From: Scleroderma bovista | Lineage: Eukaryota > Basidiomycota > Agaricomycetes > Boletales > Sclerodermataceae | Direction of reading: 5' to 3' | Length of the DNA stretch: 64,000 bases | NCBI GenBank assembly: GCA_037178675.1 | Contig: JAYMGJ010000227.1 | Span: 1-64,000, forward strand | Shown here: positions 3,626-62,776 of the stretch, in pieces | Position numbering within the stretch: position 1 is the stretch's first letter | How the letters are laid out: each line of letters opens with the position of its first letter | Notes under the pieces: model-generated | The model's database searches: none | The model's input: only the letters and a program-made list of their open reading frames with translations | What the model was told of the DNA's origin: nothing | Made by a program: the position numbers and the translations under genes

Positions 3626-3649
3626 CTCCTCACATGCCAGCCTCTCCCT

Positions 3650-36451: not shown

Positions 36452-36457
36452 TGACCC

Positions 36458-36540
36458 CATGCACCTACTTAGGCCATCTTACACGGCCACCCAAAGGTGA
36501 AAATCGGCCGAGTGTCACAGACCAGCGGATGGTAGCCCAG
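36458..36540 (+). repeat. Left terminal inverted repeat of the KDZ element
   Basis: It matches the reverse complement of about 62,695-62,776. Shared words in order are ACCTAC, TCTTACAC, GCCACCC, AGGTGAAAAT and GGCCGAGTGTCA. Several mismatches are transitions (C/T or G/A). A more decayed internal copy lies at about 37,333-37,400. Confidence 0.87.
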
Positions 36541-36824
36541 GAATAATTTGTTATCGATTGCCACGGATGGGCTACCTACTTAGATATTATCACAATGTAA
36601 TATGGGTGGGCTAGATTGTCAATTAAGGGGAGGGTGAATGGGTCAAATTAAATATTGTCATGGAAATTAATGGGAGCACATAATTTGTGCTCACTATATC
36701 ATTCAGGTGGGCCCAGGCCTGCCTTTCATTCATGTCATTGGACAAGCACATATTGTATTATCATGTAGGTGTATAGGTGAGCTAAACCAAATCAGAGTAG
36801 CAGGGGGCACCAATACACAAATGG

Positions 36825-37700
36825 CACCGCGGTAATTACCCCGGGATTATTGTCAATAATCAGGGGTGTTCCTACCGCAGGTAAAGTGTCACTACCGCGG
36901 GGTGGTAATTACTACCGCGGTTAATAATCACTAGGTTGGTAATCACTATGAGGGGTTGGTCATCACTACCGCTGGTTAATAATCACTACGTTGGTAATCA
37001 CTGAGGGGTTGGTCATCACTACCACGGGGTATGGGTCACTACCGCAGGTTTGTAATCACTACCGTGGGTTAATAATCACTAGGTTGGTAATCACTATGAG
37101 GGGTTGGTCATCACATCCATGGGGTATGGGTCACTACCACGGGTTGGTAATCACTACCGTGGGTTAATAATCACTAGGTTGATAATCACTACGAGGGGTT
37201 GGTCATCACTACTGTGGCTTGGTCATCACTACCGCGGCTTGCTCGTTACTACCACGGGTTGGTTGTCACTACCCTTGGTATGTGGAATGATTGCAGGCAG
37301 GTATAATTCCATATTGTGTGATAATGTAAACCACATGCACCTCCTTAGGCTGATGCATACAACCACACCAGAATAAAAATCGGCTAATCAGTACAACACA
37401 GAACAGGACTATGCTAGAACCATGGTCAGTTATAATAATGGTGCAGTAGGTATGACCCATGATTTTATAATATAGGTATATAGGTGAGCATGTTCAAATC
37501 AGTCCAACACAAGGGACACCACTACACTAATGGCACCGCGGTAATAGCTATTTCAAATAAGCAGTCACTACCGCGGGTGAAGTGTGACTACCACGGGGGG
37601 TGTAATAACTACAATAGGTAAGGGGAACTGCTGCAGGGATGTAATTACAATAGGTAATGGAAACTGCCGCAGGATTAATTCAACTACCGGGGGTTAGGTT
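36825..37700 (+). repeat. Left subterminal CCGCGG array
   Basis: Short units such as GGTTGGTAATCACTACCGCGG and GGTTAATAATCACT repeat about every 20-45 bases. Exact CCGCGG cores lie at 36,827, 36,895, 36,915, 37,232, 37,536 and 37,571. Between them, the same position reads CCGTGG, CCACGG, CCATGG, CCGCAG or CTGTGG. The second half (from about 37,330) repeats the order of the terminal sequence, which indicates a tandem duplication of the element end. No gene is present. Confidence 0.88.
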
Positions 37701-38006
37701 TAGGGACCACTAGCATATGAAACAGGATGGAACCAATGTTTGGAAAGAGGACATGCTGCAGCATATAGGCGACTTATTGGTATTTGATGTCAGTAACACA
37801 CCTATTACTGTGGGAACAAAAATACATAGTGACCACAGGTATATTAAATGATGACTGGTATATAGGTTTATCCTATATAAAGGAAGTATTAAATAAAAAC
37901 TAACACTAGGGTTGTTGGATCGCTCTGTGCATGGCAATTATTCAAGGACTATGAATGGTGACATAGTATCAAGTGGAAAAGTATTAACCGCGGCAACATT
38001 TCCACC

Positions 38007-38627
38007 TGTTACGACCATGTCCAACTCCGGATCATACCCGGTTACTCCGGTCGCATCGCAGCACTACAGCTCAACTCCGGACCTCTGCGCGTCACTCCGG
38101 TCCCGGACGCGCACATACTCTTCCGCTAAGTGCGACCCTTTGCATTAATCCCTATCCAGTCGTTACTTCACTTCTCCGTCAACCCTGTAGTACCGTGAGT
38201 TCTCCGTGCTCTGTTTATATCTCATACCTTGTAGTATTTTCACCGGACCTGCTTTATTTTCATCGGACCTGACCTAGTCCTAACTCCGGTCGTTCCTTGT
38301 CCGCTATTAGGTTGTTTACTTGTCACCGTATATACTCGACCCTAGTTTCTACTTAGTATAAGTACTCCGTAGTTTATTCTGTATAGTCAGTCTGAAATCA
38401 ACCATAGTCTCTACTCCTGATCTTGCCCGTCTCTGTCTCTGTCTCTGTCTCCCCTTCTTGACCGGAACCTACGCAAGGGATCAACGCTCGTTGTCCTTAG
38501 TCGTTGAATCCAAGCGGTCACCAACTCTGGCCGGACTAATCTCTTGTCCAGCCCTCTGCTCTCCCCCTTCGTCCGCTTCTGTCCGGACTTGACCGGACCC
38601 CCTACCGGAGTAGACCCGGACTTGACA
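38007..38627 (+). mobile_element. Solo LTR, family LTR-A, inside the KDZ element
   Basis: 621 bases starting TGTTACGACC and ending GACTTGACA, flanked by a perfect duplication, CCACC (38,002-38,006 and 38,628-38,632). It has no CCGCGG, unlike the sequence on both sides, which is consistent with insertion after the transposon formed. Confidence 0.96.
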
Positions 38628-38632
38628 CCACC

Positions 38633-39336
38633 GGAACAAAAGTATCAACTGCAGTGACCACCATGGGAGGCATATATTAACATGAAATGGAAAATATAAT
38701 TTGATTGCATTGTTGGGGTCATAGATGGGTTATGCAGTACACCAATGCAACCGCGGTAGCTACTGTTGGGTAGTAGAATGACACCGCAAAAGTGGCACAA
38801 TCCACGGTGGTGACAGCTCATGCAGGGTAGATAGTACCACACACAATTCAGTGAAATGTACCATTCAAATGAAATTATTTATGACGAATTACTGGACCCC
38901 TGGTGATAAGTGGGCGGGACTCAGTTGGCATACCAGGGCTGCTAAATAATTAACAGCATCTGTGCACAATCGGGGGTAGAATATTTTTTGGGTGAAACAA
39001 ACAAATTGCATTCATAAAGTAAAGGACAAAAAAGAATTTAATACATGTGAACCGAAAAAACAATGTCTGGTGGCAAAAAGAAATGTTGTAAAAAAGAAAG
39101 TACAAAGATGTATGAATAAAGCAAATAGTCTGTGCAAAGACAATGTATGAATGGAGATAAAAAAAATATTAAGTGTCTATTTTATTCCCTTCCACAGCAC
39201 CTACACATCCCTCATCTGAAACTGTGGGTGCGGGAACTGAGTTATCGGGGACATTGGCAGGACTTATGATGATGATGGGGGGAGGAATCACTTGGGGATC
39301 CAGAGGCATTCCATCACCTTCTGTAACGTTGGGAGA
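38633..39336. other. Non-coding KDZ element sequence
   Basis: AT-rich, with one CCGCGG at 38,751 and a nearby CCACGG variant. It contains the 3' flank of the minus-strand gene that ends at 39,337. No gene is seen. Confidence 0.55.
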
Positions 39337-41160
39337 CTACAGGGGATGTAAGTAGCGAACCATGGGTGAATCAATAGGACTTACCATGGTGGTGGGGACA
39401 GAATCCCTGGCTTCATCCACAGCCATTGCATCGTCTGTGGAGATGATGAAGGGAGGGGGGCGTGATGGAGGCACATGGTCATCACCAGCAGGGCTGGGAG
39501 ACCGAGGCGGATGTCTGTCTTCTACCGCGGTTGGACCCCAGAGAGTGTTCAAGAGGTCGGGGGCAATGGATCCCACATGGATCGCGATGGTGGTGGACAC
39601 ATCAGGCAAAGATGATGCAGGCGGCTGTGGGGGCGATTCCATGCTTGCAACCGCGGGCGGTGTGGGATCCGGTCCATGGTCTGCAGGAGGGACGTCGGGG
39701 GAGCATGCAGCAGGCGAGGGCGCACGGAAAATCGATGCAGGACTTCCAAGTGGGGTGGAAGTCTGCATGGAAGGGGGAGGGGGCAGTTCTGGATGGACAA
39801 TCAGTGTACCTGACCTCAGACTCTCCATGAGCTGGTGAAGAGTGTCCATTTGAACCTCTTGCGCCTCCAGCCTACGTGTCACATCGCCCAGCTTCTCCTT
39901 CAAGTCCGAACATTCGCTGCAGGCACTTGTAGTCGTCGCCGTGGTCGTATGTTCGCTGTGTTCGGTGCTTGTACCGCGGTCCCTTGATTTTGAAAGCCAT
40001 CGCGGTTGCACTATCAGCACTCCATCAAATTCTGTTTAGATTTTCAGCAGAACGGAGCGAAGGAAATATTTAACCTACTTTCACGTCTGCCCCTTGATGG
40101 GCCAAGTGTGGAAGGTCCAGCTGTGGCTGCTGGACGTGGAGAGGGGACATCCATGGGCGCGGGACTTTTGGCTTTGCGTTTGTGAGCGGAACGGGGAGGG
40201 TTGGTACGGGTTGGGGCAGCAGTAAGTGCTGGTGATGGGGCGGGGTCGGGTTGGCTTGTCCGTGTAGCTGGTGCACGGGACTGCGATCGTGACCTGATGT
40301 GCTTGAGTGACAAGCTGCACCCATGCTTCCCCTTGTTGCATTGGAAGCATGCACGATCCTCCTTCCTGGCACAGGGTAACATCCGACGGGCGCAGTGGTC
40401 ACATCGATCGGCGGCGGGAAGGATTGGGAAGTCGGGAGGGGGATGGTGAAGGTCGTAGGTCTTGGTTACACCGCGGTGGGTAGGCTTCGCAGTGTCTTCG
40501 TCATCGCTGTCGACAATGGGGGCGGACTTGACGCGTTTACGAGGGCGACGGGATTGGCTACGTCCCCGAGTCTGCTCACGTCCACGGCGACGACTTCTTG
40601 CCTCCTCTGCACCAACTGGCTCAGATGGGCTGACCTCATAGCTACTCACCTCATATGCCCTTTGCTTTCCCTTATCAATCCTCTGCATCTCTGCCTGCTC
40701 ACCATCCACCCTGCCTTTGTTGCTCAGTTCTGGAATATTTTCACCACAGTTGCACCATGGATGGTCGGAGACACTGTCTGCAGGGGATTGGAGCATTTGG
40801 GGCCACTTTGGCCATGTTGTAATACCCTCGGATGGATCTTCCAGGTCGCGATCAAGGGCCATGAGCATGGGGGGAATGCTGAAACCGCGGGGTAAGTTCC
40901 CCACCACCTCTCTGACGCGGTTCTGACGGTTGTTAGTGGCATTGAACTATGTTGAATATTGGACTCACCAGTTGGGCCCAGACATCGCGATGGACCTCCA
41001 GCCATGAGGCAGTATCCTTCGTTTTCTTAATAGCTGCTACTCTGCCGGTAATAATGCTGGTGGCATCCGCGATAACTTCTCCAGGGGTCATGGGTGTTCC
41101 GAAGTCTTCGGGAACGTTGGATGGGGATGGGACTTGGATTTCGGATTGTTGGGTGGACAT
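39337..41160 (-). CDS. KDZ cargo gene A: cysteine-cluster and coiled-coil protein
   Basis: Start ATG at 41,160. Exon 1 encodes an acidic leader and a helix with TASWLEVHRDVWAQL. An intron (about 40,971-40,927) leads to an exon rich in Arg/Ser/Gly that contains a cysteine cluster C-x2-C-x5-C-x7-C-x2-C-x5-C (about 40,380-40,290). A further intron (about 40,073-40,028, GTAGGT...AACAG) leads to a coiled coil (SECSDLKEKLGDVTRRLEAQ) and a long Pro/Ser tail ending at 39,337. The layout of cysteines, basic tract and helix recalls the antisense gene of gypsy-1. DNA or RNA binding is inferred from the cysteines and basic tracts only. Five CCGCGG sites fall in the gene. It shares a divergent promoter with the gene at 42,017. 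Confidence 0.6.
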
Positions 41161-42016
41161 AGTTTTGTAGGAGTGAGATGAGTGAGAGAGGAAAACAAGT
41201 TTGCGGTGTGGAAGCCATGCAGTATGTTGAACATTTATTATGATTAGGTCAGCAGATGTCACACACCCAGACTGACCATTGGTATGTCATCAGGCGCCAA
41301 GCCACGTGCTAATAATCTCCGTTTAGCTAGTCAGGCACCAACATCAACATGTAAATTTAATCACCGAGGTATAAATGGAATTGAAGGTCTCATAGGATTT
41401 TTGAAGGGAACCCACCGCGGTAACATACAGTATTTTAGATTTAACAGTATAATGGGTGCAGTATTAGTATCAAATAGACCACACACAGCAATGCTTGTAC
41501 AATTGTGATTGCATATTGTGATTGCATAGCTAGTGCAAGCGACATTATTCACACTAACCCTTATTGGATAAAATAGCCGCGGAAGGTAAACACAATCGGA
41601 AGGCATTTTCGTCGGGTAAATGTTGAAATGTAGGCTGGACACCTGAAGTCCACTACAAATATAATGTGTGAAATTTCTCTGCTTTCTTGGAAAGCATAGA
41701 AAAGTATACCCGCAATGTCTAGTGACGGAACAATGACCGCGGGTGTGCTAAACCTGTTTCATTGTCTATTGTTATCAGCAAATACTGACCTACAGCGCTA
41801 CAATTAGGCTTGTTCATACCTAAACATTTCTACAAAAAGATAGAACAATTGCAATCCATTGAGAGTGATATATAGTACCCGAATTCCACCCTAGATTCCA
41901 GATGTCTTAATGGTGGGAAATATCTTATGTAAGCATTCGACCCGAACATATATGATCGCGGCCTGTGAACACCAAGCCCTTGCCAGCCTTCTTTATTTCA
42001 TACACAACCACCAACC
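41161..42016. promoter_or_regulatory. Divergent promoter region between cargo genes A and B
   Basis: About 860 AT-rich bases between opposite starts. CCGCGG occurs at 41,415, 41,577 and 41,737. No TATA box is assigned. Confidence 0.4.
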
Positions 42017-43427
42017 ATGACCGGACCAGCTAGGAATGTTAGATTTATCGATGATGGAGCAGCCAACCCTGGTAAATTGTTATATTGGAACTGTCTTTGG
42101 CATTTGAGATTGATTTTGGGCAGGTTTATTTGGTAGCCCAGGGTGGACACCTCCAAAAAGACGGTCTCTGAGCAGAACATGTATGTATCCTTCATGTACA
42201 CTTTAACAGTACTCATTTTATGTTTACAGCAAGTGATAATAGCACTGGGTGGTGTCCACCCGATGAACCTCCCCCTCCACCCGCGGCAGACCCGATGTCT
42301 ATTGAAGTGGATGAAGGTTCGTTCCCCATGCTTGAATCACCTGTGGGTGCGAGGTCTGACATCTGGGCTGAACCAGGGGTGTTGCCAAGTCCCGAGTGGG
42401 ACCCTCCTGCATTTCCACCCACATCAACACCCGACCGCGGGGATGTAGCCAGCACACCCATGCCTCAAACATCGTCTGACTCATCATCCGACACCGACAC
42501 CTCAGAGGATAGCCAGGGATGGATCCCTCCCCCTCTACCGCCATCACAAACCTTTCCCGAAGTGTCCCCAAGCCCTACCTCCGATGGAAACTCATCACCC
42601 CGGCCGATCACACCCATCCGCGCAACATCACCTGACTCCTCCGATACTGACGCGTCGAAGGACAATGAAGGATGGACTCCACCTGCACAGCCAGCATTAT
42701 ACATACCACTGACATCGCCAATGTCAGTTTCGTCCGTTCAGTCCACCCCTTCAAAGTCACCCCACGGATCACCATCGATGGCTGGGTCCCCACTCTTCTC
42801 AGGGACAGGTGAGCCAACTGAGAGCGGATCTAACCCAGAGGAAAGATTCTTTGAGAATTCCTTGCCAAGGGTAGTTGGTACGAGCCCCATTGCACATCGT
42901 AGGTTAGTGGATAAGGGAAAGGGAAGGGAAGCGGAATCGGGCCCGGTGAGCGGATTCCCTGCAACATGTCCCAAGGATATGGAAGGTTAGTTAGGCCTTG
43001 GTTGGAGTTTCCTACACTGACACCATCGTAGGGGAATGGTGGCACTTGCTGAGAATGATGGCCGACCTGGAAATTTACAAAGGTAAATTCAATTGCCCGC
43101 GGCATGAATGTGAGTGCATTGACATCTCTATTAAATTGATATTGACAATCAATAGTAAGCACAGCGCGACAGATTGCAGCCCGCTTCCACCCCAAGGACG
43201 GCAAAATTACCCGCCTGGACAACTCCTACGACAAACCGCTTATTGCGATGTACATGCAATACGCGGACAAGTTGGTGGAAGAAACTCGGGAGTGGAGGAG
43301 GCTCATTGCATTGAGGGCACATTATGCTGACATCATAGATAAGTTGGAGCAAATTGATAAGGGTGAGATGGAGGGCACACAGATTGCCATGGATCAATTA
43401 GAAGATTTACACCCATCAATGTTGTAA
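42017..43427 (+). CDS. KDZ cargo gene B: acidic Ser/Pro-rich protein with C-terminal helix
   Basis: The ATG at 42,017 begins a short exon (TGPARNVRFIDDGAANP), followed by introns and a long central exon (about 42,231-42,988). That exon is very rich in Pro, Ser, Asp and Thr and contains a SSDSSSDTDTSEDSQGWIPP block that recurs near 42,640 as SSDTDASKDNEGWTPP, a roughly 165-base internal repeat. After two or more introns the last exon holds a predicted helix with YMQYADKLVEETREWRRL and ends at TAA 43,425. The protein is mostly disordered. Function unknown. The internal exon borders are provisional. Confidence 0.55.
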
Positions 43428-43639
43428 TTACAATTGGTTGTCTGTTTTTATCTTGAACAAAAAACATTCAGTTTGTACAGGGATAAGCACTAGCATGGTG
43501 AGTATGATGGGCACCATGGAGTGATTGATTTTGGATCCACACATTGTGCTTGTGATAGTCCCCGCAGTAGCGATGGTCACCATGGCTGTAATCCACACCT
43601 TTTGTTCTAAATGGTTCTAAACATCATGGTACCACGTGA

Positions 43640-43900
43640 ATCATATATACCGCAGCTCTCATATATACCGCGGCTATTACAGACATATGTGCTTGCGACT
43701 GTCACCCCAGTTATAATTCAAACCTTTGGCTGAGGTCAATAGTTGTAAATACCGCGGCTATCATACATATTGTGGATATGGTACATGATGCCACTGTGCT
43801 GAGACGCCTTGGTTGTTACTACCCCGGGCATTATCCATACCGCGGCCTTACGTACAACTCCTATATACATGCTGTGGCTATTATACACATACCGCGGTCG
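43640..43900. repeat. CCGCGG cluster between convergent gene ends
   Basis: Four exact CCGCGG sites (43,668, 43,752, 43,840, 43,892) and one CCGCAG lie in units of the type ATATACCGCGGCTATTA, spaced 50-90 bases apart. The cluster sits between the 3' ends of cargo genes B (+) and C (-). Confidence 0.8.
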
Positions 43901-44008
43901 TGATCATCACCTTGTTTTGACCCACCCAGTGGTCCCATATTTGATGTATGTACTTTACAATACATATGAAATAAACCTACGTTCGGCGCCTCTTTTGTAT
44001 ATGGGCGT

Positions 44009-46673
44009 CATCATAATCCTCCAGCCTGGGCGGGAGCCTTTTTGGCCGGACCGACTGCCGCCTTACTACATTCTTTTCCCCGCCATCGCATTTGTGTTGG
44101 AGTTGGAGTGATGAATCTCCTGCATCTTCTTTTGAGCCTTATGAGTAATTTGCTTGATGGGGCCACAATGCATACCTTGTGTAATGGCGGCCCTCGAAAG
44201 ACCCGCGGCGGGCACTTGAACTGACGGACCACTCCGTTTGGCAACTTCGGAGGGCTGGGCTGGACGTATATCAAATTTGTAAGAATAAATTTATTTGTGA
44301 TGCAATACGAAGCACTCTTACCTTTTGTCTTCAACCTTGGTTGAGCCGCGGTGGAGGAAGGGCCGGCACTTGTCACCTGCATGGAGTGAGTGCTGTTATC
44401 AGTGACTCCCTGATGTTTGTCTGCATGTAGATATTACATATATTAGCGTCAGGATATATTCAGTCCATCCGAAGATCATTACCTTTGGGCTTAAGCAGTG
44501 AGTCAGAGCGGGGTATGTCCGCGGCAGACACATCCACCGCGGGTTTACTCTTTCCTGCCACTGCACTTTGTTTACCTGGATATTGTAACATATCAATTGT
44601 CCTAATTGCATGTATTACTTGATAGGAACACTCTCACCTTTGCTCTTTGTCAATGGCTGAGCAACAGAAGCACCCGTGGTCACTATCTGATCTCCGGCGG
44701 TCTTTTGTTTCTCTGCATATAAATATTATATATAAGGTGAGTTCTATGTGGGACTTCATAAGAACACTCCCACCTTTTGTCTTTACCCGTGGCTTGGGTT
44801 TGACACACACTGCGGTACCCGCGGTCGGAGGATTCCCGGACCCAGCAGGCATAAAATATGCTGTGTTTGGGGGGCCCACTTTAATACTGTGATGCCCTGT
44901 GGAGTCACCGTCGTACAGATCCGAACTGGAATCTATGAAAACATATCAATGTATGTTCCTATAGTAATCCAACCTACCCTCTATATTTTTTCCAGCATGC
45001 TTCCGCTTTGATCTTTTTTCGCGGCCATTCTCAGCATTCCCTGCAACACATCAACAATATCCCATTGCATGAATAGATATTCTTACCTTGCATATGTTCT
45101 TGGCCGTGGCTATCCCTCACCACCCCCGCATCCTTAGCAGGACCCATGGCATTTCCATGAGGCGGCACCGCGGGCTGAGTGTCCTCTTTGTCCTCATCAT
45201 TTGACGTGTCTATCAATGGCTCTGAGTGTTTGCAAATTTAATAAGATAATATTTACCTTCCCTGCGCTTTTTGCCTGTTCTCTTTGCCGCACTCTTGTGG
45301 TTGGTGTTTGCAACCGCGGCCTGTAGCGACCCATCCGACTCTAACCACCTCTTAACCTTGAAGGTATTCGTGGGATCACTCAGTTGCCTATCTCGCCACC
45401 ACTCCAATATTTCTGTCGCCTCCTTATTCGTAAGCCTGGATGGTTCCTTGAATGCGACATTGGTGGGCCAATATCTGCCCGATATATATGTGCCGCGGTC
45501 AAGCACAATTGCTGCCCATGGGACAGCAACATCGGACCGGCCACAAGCCTGTCCTGTTGTGACACGGTGAGTGTTTGATCCATGGAAATTATTTACATAC
45601 CATAGTGAAAACTGATGAATGCGCGTACTACATCCTTTTTGTCCTGGGTGTTCATATTCAGGATGACCGGGATGTAGGGGATGCCATCTGCATCTGTTGG
45701 AAGGTCGAACCGCGGGCGCCTTTTACATTTGACAATCTTTCTTGGAACCGCATCCTCGGTATCTTCACCACTTTCCTCCTCCACACCAAAGACCTGGTGA
45801 GCATATCGCTCCCACTTGTTCTCCACGCTGTCCCAGCCCTCAAAGAGTTTCCCATCGCCCAATTCGTCATTGAAGTCGTGCCTATGTGTTTCAGTAATAA
45901 TATATGCAGTCATTAACCACGCTCACAGGCCATACATAACATCCCCCGTGGCACCTTTCCAAGCAGCCATCACAACCACTCTGGCACCGCATTGTTTCCA
46001 CATTTCCTTTGAAAATTCGCGGGCAAACTTCCGACCTTTTCCTTCCGCGGTTCTATCTGAAGTTTCAGTACCATGCTGCCACGGGATAAGAGTCTCACCT
46101 TGCTTGGATCTCTGGGGGGGGGTGGGTATCATTCCATTCCTTGGCTGTCTTTTCTGCCCGCTCGATGTTCTCCGTGGTCAGTCTCTTTATCACTTTGCCC
46201 ACCGCCCTCTGATAATTTTTAATATACCCGCTGGAACCCGGTGCATGTCCTGCTCTGGCAAGCACATCATCTATTTTTGCCTTCTCTTGGTCCGCTATTA
46301 CCATGCGGGCGGTCCACCTGCGGCCATATTTGATGAGCTGTTTTTTCTTCCGAGTGCGAGAGTGATTATACAGCCAATTCTGAATGGCCTATGAAAATAC
46401 AAAATAAGCCAACCTCTCCATAAGTGAGGGATCACTCACCTTCTTCTTTATCACCCATTGGTGACTCTTGAGTGTCCTGTTGGCCTCCAGCCTTTGAACA
46501 CTGCTTGCAATGTCCTTGAAAATGGACTTCCTTTTTGTTGCATCAGCCGCCATCCACTGTTCCAGTTTCTCCTGGACAATGACGACCTCATCTTTGCGAA
46601 GGGGGGTCTTGCCTTGCCCAGTGGCATCAGACCTCTCACCGCTATCGCTCTCACTGTACTCAGATTCGGACAT
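44009..46673 (-). CDS. KDZ cargo gene C: protein family of unknown function
   Basis: Start ATG at 46,673 with an acidic leader (SESEYSESDSGERSD). Exons then encode RRWTARMVIADQEKAK, a helix with ENIERAEKTAKEWNDTHPPPEIQ, KFAREFSKEMWKQCGARVVVM, WDSVENKWERYAHQVFG, a LPTDADGIPYIPVI segment ending in FISFHYG, then VPWAAIVLDRGTYI and KEPSRLTNKEATEILEWWRDRQ. I recall this order (AREF.KEM, DFN, LP..DG.P..P, HYR/HYG, PW..I, KEPS.L, WRDRQ) from a family expanded in mushroom genomes; its biochemical function is unknown to me. The 3' third (45,216-44,009) consists of short exons that each end in a K-x-K-G-like motif. The final exon ends in AKKAPAQAGGL with a TGA near 44,009. Confidence 0.6.
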
Positions 46674-51694: not shown

Positions 51695-52565
51695 GGGTGT
51701 AGAATGGGGAGTAATGATTGATATTTATAATTGATCCACCAACATTCCCACGTACGGCCTACCATTGTTTATCAAACAATGACCCCCCACCCAGTTGGCA
51801 TTGATCAATATCACCCATTGCTCCCGCGGATATATAATTAGTTCATCCCTTTTCTCCTATCTATATGTGATTAGTATGTCTGGATTTCAATTAGATATCT
51901 AATCTCCCCACGATGACATATAACCGTGGTCGCAATATAAGTAATCCGCTGTGAATGCCAAATGTAAAGACAGAATTGGTCGGGGAATTGACACCTCATT
52001 ATTGCCTTTTTCTAATATGAATTGGCGATCTATTTTGTGAATCTCTCGCCGTGCCTAATGGCCGCGGCAAGTTGACCCATCGATAACAAATATCCTGCGA
52101 GATAACAATCATTCCAATGTTGGTATTATCCTCTCTTCTTTGTCAGATAATTTCTCTCCTCCTGCATTTGATATCAGCAATCAATCATATGTACTGATAC
52201 ATCACCATTGTCCGATCGGTCACCGCGGCTGGGAGCAACCTCTCCCATGGACTTTATACCAACCTGTGACATTTCAAATTGTATCAATTGCTCACCTTCT
52301 TATGTATTATTTACAGGTTTGGCCAATCAATGCTTACTGATGTGGGTTCCACCCACGGCTGATCTTCTAACATGATTTGTATCTACATGTTGGCACCACT
52401 CCAAAACAGTAAATTCCATTTCCTGTCTTTATTTTTCCTATATAATTTATTGATAGGTTTGAATTTCGTTGATTATCCAGCTATCACCCCTCAATCTACC
52501 CATGGTTGCCACATAAATATTCTACAATATCCCGGCTTTGCTTGTGTCCTATTTAGCTCCCCTTC
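51695..52565. promoter_or_regulatory. Divergent promoter region of cargo gene D and the TET/JBP gene
   Basis: 871 AT-rich bases between opposite starts with CCGCGG at 51,824, 52,062 and 52,223. CpG sites here could make expression of the dioxygenase sensitive to methylation, which is inference only. Confidence 0.4.
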
Positions 52566-53825: not shown

Positions 53826-54862
53826 ATACTGGAAAGGAATTTGTAGAGCTGGGATGTATATTACTATTGATATCTCTTCATAGGAGAATTAGCAAATGCA
53901 CATGGAGTGGAATTTTAGAAATGATATTGTGTGCTACAGGTGTCTGGCAACATTGCCGCGGCTACTCAGGGTTGCTTATTGGAGAAACAACACTTATTTC
54001 ACCACGGGTTATCCATATGATACATGGCTGTATGTATACCTGGTACATCAGTGGTGTCCCGCGGGTATGTCTAGGGCAATCATTGTTGTCTTGATTCTGC
54101 CGCGGATTCATTTTGTTGGGACTACTTTGTGCATTTATTCTACTACTGTGGCTTCTTTCAGGTGCGGCATGTTGCTGCGGCCATTTTGACATACCTTACG
54201 CCCAGATATCAGTCTCTGTGAGCCCAACTATTACTGTCGGCCAGTCATATATGGGCCTATCCACGTTCAATAGAAACACCATATGTCAGCCTAGCCATGT
54301 CAATGCGGGTTAGAAATTATGTGCCCTCCGTTGGGTCCGAGGCCAATGTTATTTTGGCCAACTGGTATTCCAGGTCACAACAAATCTATAGCCCACCCTT
54401 GACACACCGGATGATGCAGGTATCCACTGGCTCACCATATCTCATTGGACCCATCACACCTCAGCCCACCCGTACTACTCGGCATCACGAAATATGGGCT
54501 CACCTATACCTTAGTGACAGTTTTACCTTGGCTGGCCCATATGCTACGGCGCCGGGTAATAATAGCCTGTCCATCTCAAATGAGAACATCATAGTGTAAG
54601 CTCACTCGTGGTATACGACCTTAATAGATATGGGCTACCCTTGGTTCAGGGGACATTGCTATTTTGGCTGATGTACATGATGAGGGACAGTATATTCAAA
54701 GCCCACCTGTGCTACATGGGATAATGATAATGGCATCATATATGGGCTAGCCCGTATCACATTGCAATCATCCATTCTCAGCCCACTCATGCTACTCGTG
54801 ATGATAGAATATGGGCTCATTGGTATCTTAGGGACTATGCTATTTCAGCTCACTCATATTAC
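53826..54862. repeat. Non-coding KDZ sequence with degenerate GGGCTCACCTATACCTTA units
   Basis: After the TET/JBP stop, CCGCGG occurs at 53,956, 54,059 and 54,100. From about 54,250 a degenerate unit of roughly 100 bases recurs, with words like CCCAC(C/T)CGT(A/G)CTACTCGG and ATGGGCTCACCTATACCTTA. The array is split by the copia insertion and resumes at 60,988-61,270. No gene is called. Confidence 0.72.
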
Positions 54863-55151
54863 TGTTGAAGTTGCACATGCACCCAGCGTAAACCGTCGAC
54901 GAAGTGCGCACAAGACTGCGACCCATATTAGTGTAGACTTAGTAATAGTCCTCTTTAGAGTAGATGTTACATGTCACACGTCACACATCACAGTCATGCG
55001 TCACACTATTTGTTGTATATAAACAGTGTTCATCGCTTATATAATATAACAGCTCTTAACCAGCTACTGCTACCATCTCTGGTTGTGCACTCCACCCAAA
55101 CAGGTGAGTTGGAGTAGCAGTTCCTCTACGTATATAGGTATTGCTTCAACA
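54863..55151 (+). repeat. 5' LTR of the copia element
   Basis: 289 bases, TGTTGAAG to TTCAACA, with a TATATAAAC box near 55,015. It differs from the 3' LTR at about 12 sites, all transitions explicable by CpG decay in one or the other copy. Confidence 0.95.
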
Positions 55152-55163
55152 GGTTATGAGCCC
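55152..55163 (+). other. Primer-binding site, half-tRNA type (initiator Met)
   Basis: GGTTATGAGCCC begins directly after the 5' LTR. It is complementary to the anticodon stem-loop of eukaryotic initiator tRNA-Met, as in Drosophila copia and yeast Ty5, rather than to a tRNA 3' end. Confidence 0.8.
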
Positions 55164-55535
55164 TGTGAGTGCACTGTGTGTAGCAATGCACCAGGCAGCG
55201 CTCCAGCTCCCTGAGCGTCGCTTTAACTAGCTTGACACTGTGGACCACAGTGAGCTCCCAGCTGAGCCCCTGCACAGCCACAAGGCGAAGTCGGTCGACG
55301 ACTTGTGCCAGACAGTGAGCTCCTAGATTGAGCACCTGTACTGCCACAGGCGAAGTTCGTCGATGACTTGCGCCAACCATGGTGAACATCATCGACGACT
55401 TGCGCTGGCATGACCTAGTCTTGAGTTAGCTGTTGACAGAAGTGCTTTCACTAGCACTCAGGTGTTTCTTCTTTTCTTGCTTGTCCATTGTTGCATTCAC
55501 TTGCTGACTCCATTGACTCCCAACAGAATATCACC
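55164..55535 (+). other. copia leader with a tandem repeat
   Basis: An untranslated leader before gag. A unit of about 65-70 bases, containing GTGAGCTCC and CGACGACTTG or CGATGACTTG, occurs twice plus a part (about 55,248-55,410). It may belong to a packaging or dimerisation signal, which is inference. Confidence 0.5.
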
Positions 55536-56663
55536 ATGTCCAGTGCTCTTGACAAGATGGTTCCTGTGTTCACTGGCTCCAACTGGCAGCAGTGGCACAC
55601 TTCTATGCAGGCCTACCTCCGGGCACAAGGCCAATGGTATGTTTACTCGACAATGCAACCCGCTGACGGTCACGATGACTGTAAGGAATGGGACGACAAC
55701 ACCAAGAGAGCACTCGGTAACATCACCTTGTGCCTTGCCCCCTCGATCCAGGTCGCCGTCTCCAGCCTCGACAGCGTTAAGGAAGTCTGGGACCACCTGA
55801 AGAAGAACTTCGGTGCCCCCAGTATCGGCTCTGCCTATGCCGAGCTTAGCAAGCTCCTGGCGACTACCATTCCCGCTGGCTCCCATCCTGCTCCTGCCAT
55901 CACCAAAGTGCTTAGCCATTTCGCTTATCTCAAAGACGCCGGCTTCGAGTTCCCTGCCCCTGTGCAGGCGATGATTATTCTCTGCAAGCTCCCTCCTACT
56001 ATGGAGGTTGTAGCTCAAATCCTCAGCCAGACGTCGCTGGACGAGATTAAGAACCTCAAGCCCAATGGGATCGTCAAGGCCGCTACTCTCTCCTTCGAGC
56101 AGAAAGGCACCTCTTCACGTGGCGGTGGTAAGGGCCCCCAGGCCAACAAGCTTAGCGCTGTGAAGCGCAAGCTGGCTGACCCAAAGTTCGCCCAGCAGCA
56201 GCAGCAGCCTCACAGGCAGCAGCAGCAGCAAGGCGGGTCCAACGGCGGTACGAGCGGAAACGCTCCTGCCCAAGGACAGGGAGGCCACACACGCCGTGGC
56301 GGCAAGAAGGCTCGCGCTCGCCACGAGAACACCCAACAGGCAGCCTTTGCCACTTATGTCCACTACGATGGACCAGAACCCACTGTCGACCCTCGCGCCT
56401 TGGCTCACACTCCCGGTGCTGCCCACTACGCCCCCCCCGCATTTGAAAATACCATCAAGGCCTTCGACTTGGCACACCATCTGGGGGTAGAGCCCTCCTG
56501 CCAAACCATCCGCACCCTCGACCAAGTTGTGTCGTTGGCGAGTGCAAACCTCGTCTTGAGGAGCGCATCACAATGTATGAGGAGGATGCCATCTCCTTGG
56601 GGGATGATGAACCCTTCACCCATGAGCCTTTCGCCAACAACGAGTTCGACAAAATCGACGTGA
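55536..56663 (+). CDS. copia Gag
   Basis: The ATG at 55,536 (ACCATGTCC) begins a copia/UBN2-type Gag with FTGSNWQQWHTSMQAYL near the N-terminus and VWDHLKKNFG in the middle, then a Gln-rich and Gly/Arg-rich basic region (about 56,195-56,330). No C-x2-C-x4-H-x4-C zinc knuckle is seen, so the basic tract may bind RNA instead. The pol frame overlaps the last 90 bases in another phase, so either a programmed frameshift or a mutation separates them. Confidence 0.8.
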   Translation: MSSALDKMVPVFTGSNWQQWHTSMQAYLRAQGQWYVYSTMQPADGHDDCKEWDDNTKRALGNITLCLAPSIQVAVSSLDSVKEVWDHLKKNFGAPSIGSAYAELSKLLATTIPAGSHPAPAITKVLSHFAYLKDAGFEFPAPVQAMIILCKLPPTMEVVAQILSQTSLDEIKNLKPNGIVKAATLSFEQKGTSSRGGGKGPQANKLSAVKRKLADPKFAQQQQQPHRQQQQQGGSNGGTSGNAPAQGQGGHTRRGGKKARARHENTQQAAFATYVHYDGPEPTVDPRALAHTPGAAHYAPPAFENTIKAFDLAHHLGVEPSCQTIRTLDQVVSLASANLVLRSASQCMRRMPSPWGMMNPSPMSLSPTTSSTKST

Positions 56664-59600
56664 TGGTCCTCGACCGCTACAACGCAACGTCGATGGCAAT
56701 GGGCATGGAGGCCAGCCTCTTCAGGCAAGTACCTTCTGCACGCGTGCTGACCAACACTGACACGCTCCCTTTACATGTGCGCTTTACGCCATCACTGTAT
56801 ATAGCGAGTAGTAACTACAATTTGTCATGTTGTGTCTCCTCGAGTAATGCATATATTTGTTCGTGTTCGAATAATGCGCGTTGTGCTGGCTGTAAGGGAA
56901 AAATGGTTGACAATAGTGAACTTTCTGGTGCCTTCTGGCTACTAGACTCTGGCGCATCACACCACTTTACTGGTGACATAGGCAATTTCGCCTCCTACAA
57001 CGCGCTAAAGCGAGCGCACTACGCCAAAATGGCTAATGGTGTAGCACTGATTGCTGGCATTAGCACGGTATTACTCCAGTGCCTAGACCACAACTCAGGG
57101 GATGAGAAAGTTATTACACTCACCCAAGTGCTCCATATGCCAGGCGCTACTGCACGCCTTATTTCTATGGGTGAAATGCTCCAGCGTAATTACAAAGTCA
57201 CTGGTGATAAGAGAGGCATTAGCCTCACTCAGAAAGCTGAACGCCTATGGTTTGGGCCAGACCCAGAAGACGATCACAATGTCATTTTTGGGATTAGATC
57301 TATCCTGATAATTAGATCTAACTACATCGCCTCCGTGAGCAAAGTCGATTACAACATTATGCACCGGAGATTCGGGCACCCCTCTAAGGAAGTACTCCGA
57401 CGCGTGCAAAAGCATACGCAGCACTTCCCGGAGATCCACTTTCCTACTGAGGATTGTGTTTGCCCTGGATGTGCTCTTGGCAAGATGCCCAATCGAGCTT
57501 TCCCAGAAAATGAAAGACGTGCTTCCAAGCCCTTTGAGCTGGTGCACTCTGATCTCAAATCCTTCCCGGTTACGTCGTACCGGAAGTTTAAATACGTTAT
57601 CACCTTCTACGACGACTATACTTCTCATGCCTGGACTATGCCTCTTTGCTCCAAAGCTGCAGCGATTACAGCTGCCAAAGATTTCCTCGAAATGGTGCGC
57701 GTCCAACATGATATGCACGTCGTTGGATGGATGTCCGATGCCGGCAGAGAGTATAAATCCGATCTATTTGATTGAGCACTCCTTGAAAAAGGAATTAAAA
57801 TTTACCAAAGTGCTCCTAGAACCCCCATGCAGAATGGCCGCGCCGAGCGTTGAAAAGATAACAATGTGTTTGGGTGGCTGCTCCCTCAGATGAGGTGCAT
57901 TCGACCCAGGGACTTCTGGAGGTCTGGCAAGGCTCCCAAGGACTAAGGAGACTAAGAAACTAGAGAGTGGAAGGGTGGTTCAGTCACTCCAAGACTGAGC
58001 TCAAAGATATACACTGAAGAGAAGGATATTTGCTTAGTAAGCTAAGTACAAGCCTACATAGCTAAGGTAAGAGTCCAGTATCAGTACTACCAATCTACAC
58101 ACCCAGAGACAGGACTGTCTCTACAGCGTTTAGGGCGCACTCTCATGGATAAAGTTGAGTCTATGCGGCATCAAGCCTGCATTCCTGACTCCTGGTGGGA
58201 ATTTGCATTCGCTCACGCAACCCACATTTACAACCGTACTCCGGTAGCTCGCCTGCGATGGCGCACCCCCCATGAAATGCTTAAGGGGGAGATGCCTAAT
58301 ATCGACCACCTACATGTGTTTGGCTGTGGAGCATTTGTATACCTCCCAGCAATGGCTCGAGCAAATAAGATGGCTCCCAAGTTGGAGCTTATGACCTATG
58401 TCGGTGTTGCCCCTGGCAATGAGTGCAACTTTTTGTTTATGCGCTCCACCAATGCAGTGTTCACCGCTGCTCACGCCGTCTTTGACGAGCATCATTTCCC
58501 TCGCTGCCCCAAAAACAGGCGCGAACCTCTCGAGAACCCTTTTGGAAGGGCAAATCCAAAACCAGCCACTGATCGACCAGGAAATTCCCCTGATGATACC
58601 GACAGTGATGACGATGTGGAACACGACCATGGCTACCCACATCCCCAAGCACAGGATGACGATCCAAAGCGCGAGGAACCCGAGGCTCCTGAGGAAGAGC
58701 CTAATCAAATAAATCCTCCCTGTACGCCATCTCCAGTGCCTCCACCGGCACTGAGAACGCCTTCACCAGCAAGAAATCCGCCACCTCAGGCACCGCAGCG
58801 CCCTGGCCGAGCTGAACGCCGCCAGAATGCGCCACGACCCCCTGCAGTGAATATCCCTGCCTGCCCCCAACGTGAACGTAGAGCGCCATTGTGCCCCGGT
58901 AACGTGTATGGTGAGCAGTGACATCCCGTCGAGCAACTCCGGGATATCGAAAGTGCCTCTCGATGGCGAGAAACAGTGGGTACCTCTGCAACGCCCAGTG
59001 AGGAAGATGTGCAAAAGATGTGCGAGGAAGGGGGAGCAAACCTAGTCCGTTATCTGATGGGCAAAGCCCTCGAAACCCGCGACCCTCAATACGAGAGTGT
59101 CCGCAATTGGTCCTACAAGGACATCGCTCGCTTACCCCAAGCTGAGCAGAAACTCTGGCGACTTGCTTGCCAAGAAGAGCTCGATGTGCTATGAAAGCGC
59201 AAGGTCTTTGAGCTAGTTGACCGTCCCCGAGACCGGAAGGTCATAAAGAATTGATGGGTCTTCGACGTGAAGTCGGATGGCCGCAAGAAAGCCCACTTAG
59301 TAGTGAAAGGCTTCTCCCAGGTCAAGGGATTAGATTTCAACCAGGTCTTCTCACCAGTCGTGCGCTTTGAAACAGTGCGCCTCATGCTTGTGCTTGCTGC
59401 ACTTGAGAATTGGTATATCACTGGACTCGATGTTCGGAGTGCCTACTTGTATGGCAAGCTCGATGAAGAGATCTATATGGAACAACCCAAAGGGTTTGCA
59501 GTTCCCGGGCAAGAGCACAAAGTGCTCCGCCTCTGGCGTGCCCTCTATGGCCTCAAACAGGCCGGCCTAGCTTGGTGGTGCACACTCGATGAGTCTCTCA

Positions 59601-60646
59601 AGGAACTCGGGTTTGAGTGCCTTAAATCTGAAGCAGGCATTTTCTTCTACAAGAAGAAAGGCACCAACATCGTCATCGGGATTATCTACATTGACGACGC
59701 ACTATTCTGCAGCCCTAACAAGGCTGTTGTTGATGCCATTAAAGTGCAGTTCATGTGCAAATGGGAGTGCAGAGACCTTGGAGAACCTAAGGAGTTCCTC
59801 CGAATGCGAATCACTCGCAAGGGTCGCGCTATCCACCTGGATCAATGTGTGTACCTCCAAAAGGTCATCGAACGCTGTGGCATGCTTAATGCAAAGTCTG
59901 CAAGCACCCCACTGCCGGCTGGCTACTATGCCACCAAAAATACAGAGCCTGTTGATGCAGAACTCCGCTCCCGTTTCCAGACGGTTATTGGGTCCCTTCT
60001 GTACCTTATGTTAGGCACTAGGCCCGACATTGCTTTTGCAGTCACCCATCTCTCGCACCATGCCGCAAACCCATCCCAGGACCACCTGTCCAAAGCACTT
60101 TATATCTGTCGCTACTTGATTGGTACACCTAATTACTCCCTAGTGTACAATGGTGGATCCAGTGCTGGCCTGATTGCATGCACGGACTCAGATTGGGGAT
60201 CAGACCCTACCTCTCGCCTCTCGCAGACAGGTTTTTACCTGAAACTTGCAGATGGCTTGATCAGTTGGACTTCTCGTGTGCAGAAGACTATTGCGTACTC
60301 GTCCACTGAGGCTGAATACATGGCTTTGAGCGATTGCGCTCGCCAAGTTACCTGGATTCGGAGTCTACTCGGTGAGCTCGGCTATAAGCTGAAAGCTATC
60401 CCGATTTGCGGTGATAATCAGGGGTCCATATTCATGGCATCCAACCCTGTAATGGAGCCTCGCTCCAAGCACATCGACATCTGCTACCACGGAATCCGCG
60501 AGTCAGTCGCGAAAGGTAATGTGGAGCTATTCTTCATTGATGGTGCTGAGAATCCCGCTGATCTGCTCACCAAGAACTTACCCTGCAAGAAATTTGCGAA
60601 GTTCAGAGCTCAACTAGGCTTACAGTTTCCCTCTGGCAGCATCTAG
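56573..60646 (+). pseudogene. copia Pol, broken by stops and an insertion
   Basis: Protease with LLDSGASHHF (about 56,940), the integrase finger H-H-C-C (about 57,361-57,472), the integrase core, then, after a 275-base insertion, the rest of integrase and a Pro-rich linker. Reverse transcriptase (from about 59,265, with IYIDDALF near 59,690) and RNase H (TDSDWGSD near 60,183, STEAEYMAL near 60,303) follow, ending at TAG 60,644. TGA stops occur at 57,773, 58,919, 59,192 and 59,252. At 57,773 and 59,252 the family consensus is Arg, so CGA to TGA is the likely change. Confidence 0.88.
57851..58125. mobile_element. 275-base insertion in copia integrase, TG...CA ends
   Basis: It starts TGAAAAGATAACAATG and ends GTCTCTACA, flanked by GCGT (57,847-57,850 and 58,126-58,129; the second copy can also be read as GCGTT). 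Removing it joins integrase in frame through GRAER. It has no coding content. It is a small solo LTR or another short non-autonomous element. Confidence 0.7.
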
Positions 60647-60684
60647 CGCCTTATTCGCTGAAAGTGCTCTACGTGCAGCACAGC

Positions 60685-60693
60685 GAGGGGGAG
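60685..60693 (+). other. Polypurine tract of copia
   Basis: GAGGGGGAG directly precedes the 3' LTR. Confidence 0.85.
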
Positions 60694-60982
60694 TGTTGAA
60701 GTCGCACGTGCACCCGGCGTAAACCGTCAACGAAGTGTGCACAAGACTGCGACCCATATTAGTGTAGACTTAGTAATAGTCCTCTTTAGAGTAGATGTTA
60801 CATGTCACACATCACGTGTCACAGTCACGCGTCACACTATTTGTTGTATATAAACAGTGTTCATCGCTTATATAATATAACAGCTCTTAACCAGCTACCG
60901 CTACCATCTCTGGTTGTGCACTCCACCCAAACAGGTGAGTTGGAGTAGCAGTTCCTCTACATATATAGGTATTGCTTCAACA
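60694..60982 (+). repeat. 3' LTR of the copia element
   Basis: 289 bases, the same length as the 5' LTR, ending TTCAACA next to the ATTAC duplication. Confidence 0.95.
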
Positions 60983-60987
60983 ATTAC

Positions 60988-61270
60988 ATGGGCCCATATA
61001 ATAACAGCCTGCCCATATGACATGGGATGGTATAATAGTGGCCCATCCATACCCCATGAGGAGGTCAATGTGTCAGCCCACTCGTGCTACTCGGGATGAT
61101 GCAATATGGGCTCACCTATACCTTAGGTGAAGGTTATTTTGGCTCACTCATGTTACATGGGACCATATAATAGCAGCCTGCCCATGTGACATGGGATGGT
61201 ATAATAGTGGCCCATCCATATCCCATGTCAGCCCAATATGGGCTCACCTGTACCTTTGGGGACAGACCCA
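60988..61270. repeat. Degenerate GGCTCACCTATACCTT array, right part
   Basis: This continues the array at 54,250-54,862 after the copia insertion. Words such as ATGGGATGGTATAATAGTGG and GGGCTCACCTATACCTTA recur. Confidence 0.75.
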
Positions 61271-61289
61271 GGGTGGCCCTATCCTCTGG

Positions 61290-62420
61290 TACTCAGCCCG
61301 CGGTGGGTACTCACTTGGGTAGTCAACCTGTGCTGTGTAATCAACACCAGTGGCTAGCTAACCTGCAGTGGGCAGCTAACCTGCAGTGGGTAGTCAACCC
61401 ACCATGGGTGGTAGTGCGACCGCGGTTGGTAGTCAATCCGTGGTGGGGAATCACTCTACTGGGTAGTTAGCTTTGGGTGCGTAGCCAAGGGCAGTGGCTA
61501 GGTAATGGGTGGTTGGCAGCTAACCCACGGTATGCATTGAACCCACGGTATAACCTGCAGTGGGTCGTCAAGCCTGGGTAGGTACTGGTTAGACCTGGGA
61601 CCTTGGTTGGTGGCCAACCTGTGGTGGGTCAGCAGTAGCTAGCTAACCCATGGTGGGTAGCCAACCCGTGGTATGTATTGAACCTGCGGTGTCACCTGCA
61701 TGGGATAATCAACCCACAATGGGCGGTCACCCCTGGGTAGGTACGTGGTTGGTAGTACGACCACGGTTGGTAGTCAACCCGCGGTGGAGAGTCATCAGTG
61801 GGTAGCTAACCCATATTGGTCAGCTAACCCGCGGCATGTATTGAACCCGTGGTGTAACCTGCAGTAGGTGGTCAACCAGGGGTAGGTACATGGTTAAAGC
61901 TGGGACCACGGTTTGTGGCCAACCCATGGTGGGTACTCACTCCACTGGTTAGTAAACCTGAACTATGTAGTCAACAAGGCCAGCTAACCCATGGTGGGCA
62001 GCTAACCCGCAGTAAGTATTGAACCTGCGGTTTTTGCAGTGGGAGTCGACCCACAATGGGCAGTCACCCCTGGGTTGGTAGTGCGACCACGGTGTAGTCA
62101 ACCCCCGCTGTGTAGTCAACAGTAGTGGGTGGATAACCGGTGTTGGGCAGCTAACCCGCGGTGTGACCTGCAGTGGATGGTCAACCCTGGGTAGGTACAT
62201 GGTTGGAAATAGTTGCTGGCCAACCTAACCCGCACGAGTAGTTAACCCTGGTTAGTAGTGGGCCCGTAGTGGGACCGTGGTTTGTAGTAATCCCGCGGCG
62301 TGTAGTAATCCTGTGGTGTGTGATGCCTGTATATGTATAGTCAGCTGTAGTAGTCCATCAATGGTAAGTAGTCAACCTGCGGTAGTCAACCCCAGTAGTT
62401 CACCCACGGTAATGGACCCA
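61290..62420 (+). repeat. Right subterminal CCGCGG array
   Basis: Units such as GGTAGTCAACCCGCGGTGG and AGCTAACCCGCGGTATG repeat about every 20-40 bases. Exact CCGCGG sites lie at 61,298, 61,420, 61,779, 61,829, 62,156 and 62,293. Many sister units read CCGTGG, CCACGG, CCATGG, CTGCGG or CTGCAG at the same place. The reverse complement (ACCGCGGGTTGACTACC) resembles the units of the left array, so the two ends carry inverted subterminal repeats of one kind. No gene is present. Confidence 0.87.
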
Positions 62421-62694
62421 GTTCTGCTGGTAGGTTGATTAGATTCATTCCTACTGTATGCAGTAGTATCTATTTTTGCTAGCCCACCCCATACCTTTGC
62501 ATTCCAGTAAATCTAGGCTCATCCATTAATGTGCACCCAGTAAGATTGTGGCCCACCAAGATGTCATGATGACAATTCCTATATCCCTACCACAACCCCT
62601 CCTTAACTACCACCATAGCCCACCCATATCACATGGTAAAAAAATCATAGTGTGTAAGCCCACCCGTATTACTCGGTGATACTCCATCCATGGG

Positions 62695-62776
62695 CTCCTG
62701 TCCACTGGCCCATGACACTCGGCCAATTTTCACCTTCGGGTGGCTGTGTAAGACAGGACAAGGTAGGTACATTATG
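62695..62776 (-). repeat. Right terminal inverted repeat of the KDZ element
   Basis: Reverse-complement match of the left end (36,458-36,540), with the same ordered words. Confidence 0.87.

Follow-up and report, generated by a model that had tools for sequence, protein, structure and literature searches.

The CACTA (En/Spm, with TnpA) and hAT (Ac) transposons carry tandem copies of short words in opposite orientation near their two ends, which are bound by an element-encoded protein and for which methylation matters. In fungi, expansions of TET/JBP genes and of KDZ transposons were reportedly described in 2014. In Arabidopsis, the VANC proteins encoded by VANDAL elements, transposable elements (TEs) of the MuDR type, bind short motifs that are dense in their own TE, cause methylation loss, and recognize motifs that differ between related TEs (PMC5735166). 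In yeast, the core of the pleiotropic drug response element (PDRE) is a pair of opposed CGG triplets, CCG and CGG back to back, that Pdr1 and Pdr3 recognize as CCGCGG (PMC3091778). Kyakuja and other TET-encoding KDZ elements of Agaricomycetes combine a KDZ transposase, a CxC2 cysteine cluster and a TET/JBP gene (Kojima 2025; PMC12730594). Here we describe a KDZ-superfamily transposon with the same three components in a 64,000-base stretch of the genome of Scleroderma bovista (bases 1-64,000 of contig C227, hereafter the window) in which the word CCGCGG is concentrated in arrays near both ends and dispersed through the interior, coding sequence included. This lattice very probably represents an array of binding sites, maintained by selection, for a protein that the element itself encodes.

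The window contains 63 exact copies of CCGCGG, 59 of which fall within the element (36,452-62,776). An earlier note on this DNA had placed 53 of the words in 36,827-54,105, six in 61,298-62,298, four in bases 1-36,000 and none in two later insertions, a solo long terminal repeat (LTR; 38,007-38,627) and a copia retrotransposon (54,863-60,982); exact counting returned the same figures. The boundaries drawn in that note are also right, the element being flanked by the 8-bp duplication TGCCTAAT, and its estimate of about 45 % GC has to be raised to the measured 48 %, with a CpG observed/expected ratio of 0.57 without the inserts, that is, the element is CpG-poor. Outside the inserts, the 19.6 kb of the element hold 59 sites where dinucleotide frequencies predict 1.7-1.8, compared with 4 sites against 4.1 expected in bases 1-36,000; the enrichment over composition is thus real. 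Twelve of the 59 sites lie in or adjoin the subterminal repeat regions (six left, six right), and the dispersed part consists of 47 interior sites (37,701-54,862 minus the LTR) where 1.49 are expected (Poisson p ~10^-52). By comparison, when bases 1-36,000 were divided into five 7.2-kb chunks and the copia element was added as a sixth control stretch, the best 6-mers reached p values of only 10^-3.3 to 10^-7.3. There is no general excess of CCGCGG in the single genome analyzed (51.8 Mb, 850 contigs), because its 7,400 copies (1 per 7.0 kb) are nearly equaled by 7,239 copies of the reversed control word; the density within the element is ~21 times the genome mean. On these dinucleotide and genome-wide controls, composition was rejected as the cause.

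The interior sites consist of the exact six-base word without a flank consensus. Across the 47 sites, the information content of the flanks peaks at 0.15 bit at position -1 (a mild preference for A) and is at most 0.05 bit at the other nine positions, so that a dispersed short repeat or a miniature inverted-repeat transposable element was rejected and one repeat family cannot explain the sites, as the earlier note had argued. Its further argument that codon use cannot explain them was borne out as well: the coding stretches as delimited here hold 10 of the 47 interior sites, with 10.5 expected from their length, and frames 0, 1 and 2 are used 2, 4 and 4 times, respectively. The spacing of the interior sites is random-like (coefficient of variation 0.92 vs 0.97 for random placement); fixed spacing was accordingly rejected, and the term lattice is not meant as periodic. 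When pairs of triplets spaced by 0-21 bases were compared, zero-spaced CCG-CGG topped the 12 best pairs listed (59 vs 2.7). CCACGG, CCGTGG and CCATGG are also enriched in the element. A reading of these words as PDRE-like degeneracy (CCRYGG) was dropped and is not used as evidence because single copies in the alignments show all four CpG transitions, so that much of this enrichment may be decay.

The CCGCGG lattice is a family trait. Searches of the same genome yielded at least 150 matches to the transposase (150 of 204 candidates scored) and at least 131 matches to the zinc-cluster gene discussed below (131 of 209 candidates scored); the lineage letters A to H were assigned in this analysis from identity classes. 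The best matches, loci L005-L064, represent lineages A and B, 30 of them excised around the transposase and the other 30 around the zinc-cluster gene, with many elements represented twice and with two loci (L009 and L035) corresponding to the window element itself. Between 3 and 17 copies of CCGCGG per 2.1-3.9 kb, where 0.1-0.9 are expected, were found in 58 of these 60 loci; the two loci without the word are L024, which is so CpG-poor that 0.0 copies are expected, and L034. Lineage H, represented by one stretch (L067), contains 13 copies in 9.9 kb against 0.7 expected. Close pairs of CCGCGG number 272 genome-wide, compared with 49 for the control, and among the places listed (first contigs), 38 of 50 such pairs lie on or beside located A/B elements, one of the 38 being 7.8 kb from the marker gene. 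Hence the lattice, which the earlier note had considered confined to one KDZ transposon, is shared by A, B and the sister lineage H. The same note had assigned the lattice to the transposon itself and dated it before the nested insertions, a view supported by the recurrence of the sites at dozens of further family loci.

For analysis of site turnover, oriented loci were aligned and majority sequences were taken for sublineages A1, A2 and B, with L018, L019 and L024 in the transposase region and L042, L052 and L054 in the Cys6 region left as rows outside the groups. Changes of CpG to TpG or CpA after insertion affect 304 of the 1,399 lattice CpGs and 1,303 of the 6,497 other CpGs in six groups (p 0.16). 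The lattice and other CpGs of single groups decayed at 17/232 vs 55/895, 57/182 vs 168/605, 59/242 vs 167/796, 76/260 vs 474/1,683 and 54/237 vs 300/1,162, and one group decays faster at the lattice (41/246 vs 139/1,356). Because decay is about the same in both classes, protection of CCGCGG from CpG decay was rejected, and the specially protected landmark implied by the self-methylation proposal of the earlier note is unsupported. Recent copies of the family (L005-L064) differ almost only by C-to-T in CpG. Locus L016 illustrates the pattern: 13 of its 87 non-lattice CpGs changed, compared with three transitions (C-to-T or G-to-A) at 1,404 other C/G positions and no changes at 1,778 A/T positions. 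Such CpG-limited mutation is of interest because hypermutation is cited as not detected in Agaricomycotina (PMC12730594, section 4.2). These copies thus face a CpG-specific mutation pressure, with deamination of 5-methylcytosine as the simplest source, and under such pressure a device acting against methylation would pay.

Despite this loss, exact sites are retained between diverged lineages. Between A1 and B, 8 of the 10 gap-free sites of the transposase region (12 sites in all) are kept, compared with 863 of 2,911 other 6-mers, 62 of 383 words with one CpG and 0 of 13 words with two CpGs (Fisher p 0.0015, 2.4e-5 and 9e-5, respectively). In the Cys6 region, 5 of 11 sites (14 in all) are kept between A1 and B, against 282 of 2,638 other 6-mers (p 0.0038) and 55 of 463 one-CpG words (p 0.007), and 7 of 10 are kept between A1 and A2, against 181 of 529 one-CpG words (p 0.024). 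These p values are approximate because words at neighboring columns are not independent. The number of sites is nearly constant, with 12, 13 and 13 in the transposase region and 14, 14 and 15 in the Cys6 region of A1, A2 and B, respectively; only 7 of 19 and 4 of 28 site columns are common to all three, and several sites align to words that differ at four or more of the six bases in another lineage. Site counts therefore hold at 12-15 per 3.4-3.9 kb despite many position changes. A stable number of sites at shifting positions, in the face of strong loss, would be expected if selection acted on binding-site density, and because the sites are retained between diverged lineages although their CpGs decay like others, the alignments show signs of selection, rather than mutation, keeping them.

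The features of the element are collected in Table 1. The KDZ transposase domain accompanied by a CxC cluster and the target-site duplication (TSD) at the ends place it in the KDZ superfamily. Kyakuja is characterized by a 7-bp TSD, 5'-CA..TG-3' termini and the lack of terminal inverted repeats (TIRs), and the TET-bearing families Kyakuja-1_LB and Kyakuja-2_LB are described with 7-bp TSDs and no TIRs (PMC12730594, section 3.2.1). In contrast, the window element has an 8-bp TSD, TG..TG termini (given this TSD) and diverged TIRs, and is filed here only as KDZ. The right subterminal array is inverted relative to the left one. Two further open frames, 45213-45722 (-) and 42172-42990 (+), gave no Pfam match above the cut-off, the former having only weak sub-threshold matches (E 0.023 and 0.095).

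Table 1 Features of the CCGCGG-rich KDZ element and its flanks (window coordinates)
Feature	Position	Strand	Basis
Target-site duplication TGCCTAAT, 8 bp	36444..36451 and 62777..62784		Direct repeat exactly flanking the element
KDZ-superfamily DNA transposon, 26,325 bp including two later insertions	36452..62776	+	TSD; KDZ, CxC2 and Tet_JBP domains
Left terminal inverted repeat, diverged	36477..36636	+	Arms I1 and I2, 75% and 72% complementary to 62593-62753
Left subterminal array, ~20-bp units round CCGCGG or decayed forms, 6 exact sites	36827..37700	+	Families D1, D3, D15; tandem repeats
Interior lattice, 47 dispersed CCGCGG, coding and non-coding	37701..54862		Counts, flank information
Inserted solo LTR (label of the earlier note)	38007..38627		0 sites
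Candidate reader, second exon: coiled coil (~39812-39910) and proline-rich tail	39337..40031	-	tblastn, intron
Candidate reader, exon with Zn2Cys6-type cluster CDHCARRMLPCARKEDRACFQCNKGKHGC and RS-rich basic linker; 5' end not defined	40079..40946	-	Cysteine spacing
Zn2Cys6-like segment used for alignment and folding	40242..40469	-	Alignment, fold model
CxC2 cysteine cluster associated with KDZ transposases	47701..48159	+	PF18803, E 3.1e-27
KDZ transposase exon	48805..49218	+	PF18758, E 3.2e-31
Open frame, probably continuation of the transposase, sites at 49547 and 49882	49468..50175	+	Open frame; no Pfam match
TET/JBP dioxygenase exon (predicted)	53259..53825	+	PF12851 Tet_JBP, E 6e-16
Inserted copia retrotransposon (label of the earlier note)	54863..60982	+	Long direct repeats 54863-55151 / 60694-60982; 0 sites
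Right subterminal array, ~18-bp units round CCGCGG or decayed forms, 6 exact sites	61298..62321	-	Families D2, D5, D6, D13; tandem repeats
Right terminal inverted repeat	62593..62753	-	Arm complementarity with the left TIR

Zn2Cys6 (Gal4-type) clusters follow the pattern C-x2-C-x6-C-x5-12-C-x2-C-x6-8-C, and the spacing of cysteines in a protein encoded on the minus strand of the element (39,337-40,946) fits this pattern. The two open frames of the gene, 40,044-40,946 and 39,337-40,035, join over a 47-bp GT-AG intron (40,032-40,078) into a spliced open frame of 520 residues; in a search of A, B and H copies with a narrow pattern, the intron position was common to five of eight copies, all from A and B and including the window element. 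The spacing is 2-6-7-2-6 in A, B, C, D and G, whereas H has a third loop of 8, and some copies, for example L062, do not match the Zn2Cys6 spacing. The predicted coiled coil consists of four heptads (delineated by eye) with hydrophobic residues 3-4 spaced in one spliced frame and, judging from tblastn, is conserved in A and B loci and weak in H (31 %, E 0.007). When all PDB chains were searched, only three matches up to E 10 emerged, all weak and all to GAL4 (E 0.25, 0.98 and 2), the best of them with the six cysteines in register. The loop between cysteines 2 and 3 reads ARRMLP in A, ARRQLP in B and IRRALP in H, a shared form xRRxLP, and VQRDRR or VQRDRQ in two copies of C, RKGDKM in D and KRAGRA in G; single A and B copies vary in this loop. 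Thus, the xRRxLP form goes with the lineages that carry CCGCGG, whereas C, D and G differ both in the loop and in the word (for D, the zinc-cluster sequence comes from C122 and the word from C274). The earlier note had listed binding by the transposase or by a cargo protein among its proposals; the cargo-protein version is the best reading, with this coiled-coil protein of the Zn2Cys6 type as the probable reader, and the transposase version survives only as a rival.

The other KDZ lineages were sampled by one stretch each: C by L065 (C556), D by L068 (C274), E by L069, F by L070 and G by L066. None of these five stretches is rich in CCGCGG (4, 1, 1, 1 and 0 sites, respectively), so that sharing of the word among related KDZ elements, on which the earlier note had staked its proposal, holds for A, B and H and fails for the five other sampled lineages, which have other words, in four cases with CGG. 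Lineage C combines CGGCAC in a 17-bp array with TGCCG(G) in the interior, where TGCCG is in clear excess with 56 copies against 14 expected (p 10^-16.7), partly in a second local cluster. The word of D is TACCGGT, in the array, and that of G is CACGG, mostly in the array; nine copies of CGGCCG crowd into a single 0.45-kb cluster of E, which has one further copy outside it, and F has only tandem-repeat-like words. The leading words of C, D, E and G contain CGG, whereas that of F does not. Genome-wide, TGCCGG forms 461 and 475 close pairs on the two strands, compared with 125 and 116 for the control, and among the places listed (first contigs), 66 of 100 fall within or next to six elements whose zinc-cluster or TET gene belongs to the C identity class (on C19, C24, C65, C67, C72 and C76); ACCGGT forms 894 close pairs against 502 for the control. 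The pattern of words in these lineages is suggestive only because array words amplify by duplication. Runs of ACCGGT pairs, partly in 15-bp steps, were also observed at C24:46901-68969, outside the neighborhood of the KDZ genes located on this contig; they are perhaps non-autonomous D-type elements or a satellite-like amplification of the array. In the copies of C and D that were read (L065 and L068), the TET gene and the transposase point in opposite directions with the word array between them, whereas in the window element these two genes have the same orientation and the arrays lie outside them.

Taken as a whole, we lean toward a model of selected sites, a Zn2Cys6 reader and TET-linked anti-silencing, which is patterned on the VANC system (PMC5735166). 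The approximately 60 CCGCGG sites would be kept and renewed by selection on the element. A dimer of the Zn2Cys6 protein would bind a CCG half-site and a CGG half-site without a spacer, and many weak sites would let the protein coat its own DNA while ignoring the isolated sites of the host (~1 per 7 kb), so that site density would separate self from host. The bound protein may then recruit or favor the TET/JBP dioxygenase of the element against CpG methylation, whereby the element would stay open, and at the tandem arrays it could additionally help to mark the ends for the transposase. That anti-silencing is the main job of the reader is an assignment we make tentatively, by analogy. Under this model, a sequence preference of the TET enzyme itself, another proposal of the earlier note, is not needed to explain the lattice. 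A bolder extension, offered here as speculation, is that the words constitute a self-recognition code: each TET-encoding KDZ lineage of this fungus might write its own CGG-centered word throughout its DNA, exons included, and encode its own zinc-cluster reader that directs oxidative demethylation to copies of that lineage, keeping the anti-silencing effort of one lineage from benefiting its sisters in the same genome.

The likeness to the VANC system extends to two features: one short motif is crowded in its own TE family but sparse in other DNA, and the motifs are partly in tandem arrays. Related TEs in one genome may likewise pair other motifs with a divergent TE-encoded protein, as few lineages with one sequenced copy each suggest. 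Removal of methylation was shown for VANC (PMC5735166) and for the KDZ element is only proposed. VANC proteins contain the DUF1985/DUF287 domains, whereas the candidate reader is of the Zn2Cys6 type, and none of the 11 frames scanned, the candidate reader included, of the 42 listed for 36,000-64,000 matched DUF1985 or DUF287 in Pfam. Because no VANC protein was matched, the element is filed not as a VANC system but only as working like one; it also differs from the VANDAL system in belonging to the KDZ superfamily and carrying its own TET/JBP gene. Unlike the subterminal arrays of CACTA and hAT elements, CCGCGG also fills the interior, coding sequence included. PDREs share the core CCGCGG but are promoter sites of host drug-resistance regulators (PMC3091778), not a transposon-wide lattice. 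The main text of Kojima 2025 (PMC12730594) does not contain the words subterminal, zinc, binding site or CCG. A search confined to titles and abstract openings of the open-licence literature found no such lattice, which is weak evidence of absence.

A number of results weigh against this model. With regard to selection, retention in the Cys6 region between A1 and B does not differ significantly from that of two-CpG words (5/11 vs 9/45, p 0.09), and the transposase region shows no excess retention between A1 and A2, with 9 of 12 sites kept compared with 1,889 of 2,967 other 6-mers and 10 of 11 two-CpG words. With regard to the reader, the Zn2Cys6 assignment is drawn from cysteine spacing and weak matches. 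The Pfam Zn_clus profile matched two of nine members, both below the cut-off (G, E 0.018 over 14 profile positions, and D, E 0.045), and gave no match in the scanned A, B, C and H sequences; a PDB profile search with the zinc cluster found nothing. The single-sequence AlphaFold (AF2) model of the cluster is poor (predicted local distance difference test score, pLDDT, 52), and Foldseek with this model gave no match. No zinc cluster turned up in the 9-kb stretches read for E and F, although the gene may lie outside them; covariation of motif and reader can be judged from only a handful of independent lineages (ABH, C, D and G); and the CxC2 cluster of the transposase could itself be the reader. 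With regard to the other lineages, a single sequenced copy each supplied the words of C, D and G, and a good deal of the excess falls within tandem arrays. The interior excess of CCGGT in D is weak (p 10^-5.2, when control 5-mers reach 10^-9.4), and the interior word of G, ACTCCG (10^-8.5; control 6-mers 10^-7.3), was dropped, being common in the LTR element and the solo LTR of the window. Finally, VANC motifs are mainly non-coding and often form tandem repeats, whereas CCGCGG is equally dense in coding sequence and its interior part is repeat-free, and Kojima 2025 speculates that TETs of this type oxidize without target specificity (PMC12730594, section 4.2).

Among the alternatives, the one that survives best, albeit as an unlikely explanation, is that the transposase or its CxC2 cluster reads the word, such that the lattice would condense a long element and join its ends for excision, the internal sites being an extension of the subterminal repeats. 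The word does form inverted subterminal arrays at both ends, the transposase gene does carry a CxC2 cluster, and the transposase lineages differ together with the words. Known subterminal repeats, however, stay near the element ends, whereas 47 of the 59 sites are interior and coding sequence is as densely populated as the rest; moreover, the CCG/CGG half-site logic points to the Zn2Cys6 protein, and internal transposase sites could expose the element to self-destructive cleavage.

The next alternative, if a rather improbable one, is a plain transcription network, in which the candidate reader would activate the element genes through upstream activating sites without any role in methylation. 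It would agree with the role of most Zn2Cys6 proteins as transcription factors, with the location of many sites outside the coding stretches and with CCGCGG being the core of Pdr1/Pdr3 sites in yeast promoters (PMC3091778). Nevertheless, site density is not higher outside coding sequence than within it, and a random-like spread over the interior is unneeded for promoter use.

Less probable still is a host factor, for instance a zinc-cluster protein or the CpG methylation machinery, that reads CCGCGG and that the element either exploits or is harmed by. The host is likely to have many zinc-cluster proteins, and CpG decay in the copies is heavy; but a word used against the element should be lost rather than gained, and a host reader would not yield different words in sister KDZ lineages of one genome. 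A neutral origin, be it CpG decay that spares CCGCGG, mutational bias, codon use or the spread of a short repeat, is scarcely credible as the sole cause: it can call on the low CpG content, the strong CpG decay and the missing excess in the A1-A2 comparison of the transposase region, but lattice CpGs decay much like others, the density is ~16 times that given by 48 % GC without any CpG depletion, the flanks contain no repeat, all three frames are used, and sites outlast two-CpG words between A1 and B, clearly in the transposase region and more weakly in the Cys6 region.

Outside the element, 13 of the 22 copies of ACTCCGG in the window lie within 1337-8177, in an element that by eye is gypsy-like, at the left of the window, and six copies lie in the solo LTR. 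The spacing of five copies at 7595-7855 is nearly identical to that at 38024-38283, so that the solo LTR probably belongs to the family of the left gypsy-like element. TCCGG is also in excess in bases 1-7200 (p 10^-9.4) and is perhaps another element-specific binding word.

The selected lattice and the candidate reader make the question of how element-encoded TET enzymes are targeted in mushroom-forming fungi directly testable. If the model is true, the element would be a fungal counterpart of the plant VANC system that evolved in a different transposon superfamily around a different type of protein, and it would illustrate selection for a binding word that runs through coding sequence. The lineage-specific words and loops would then also form a natural set for engineering locus-specific DNA demethylation.

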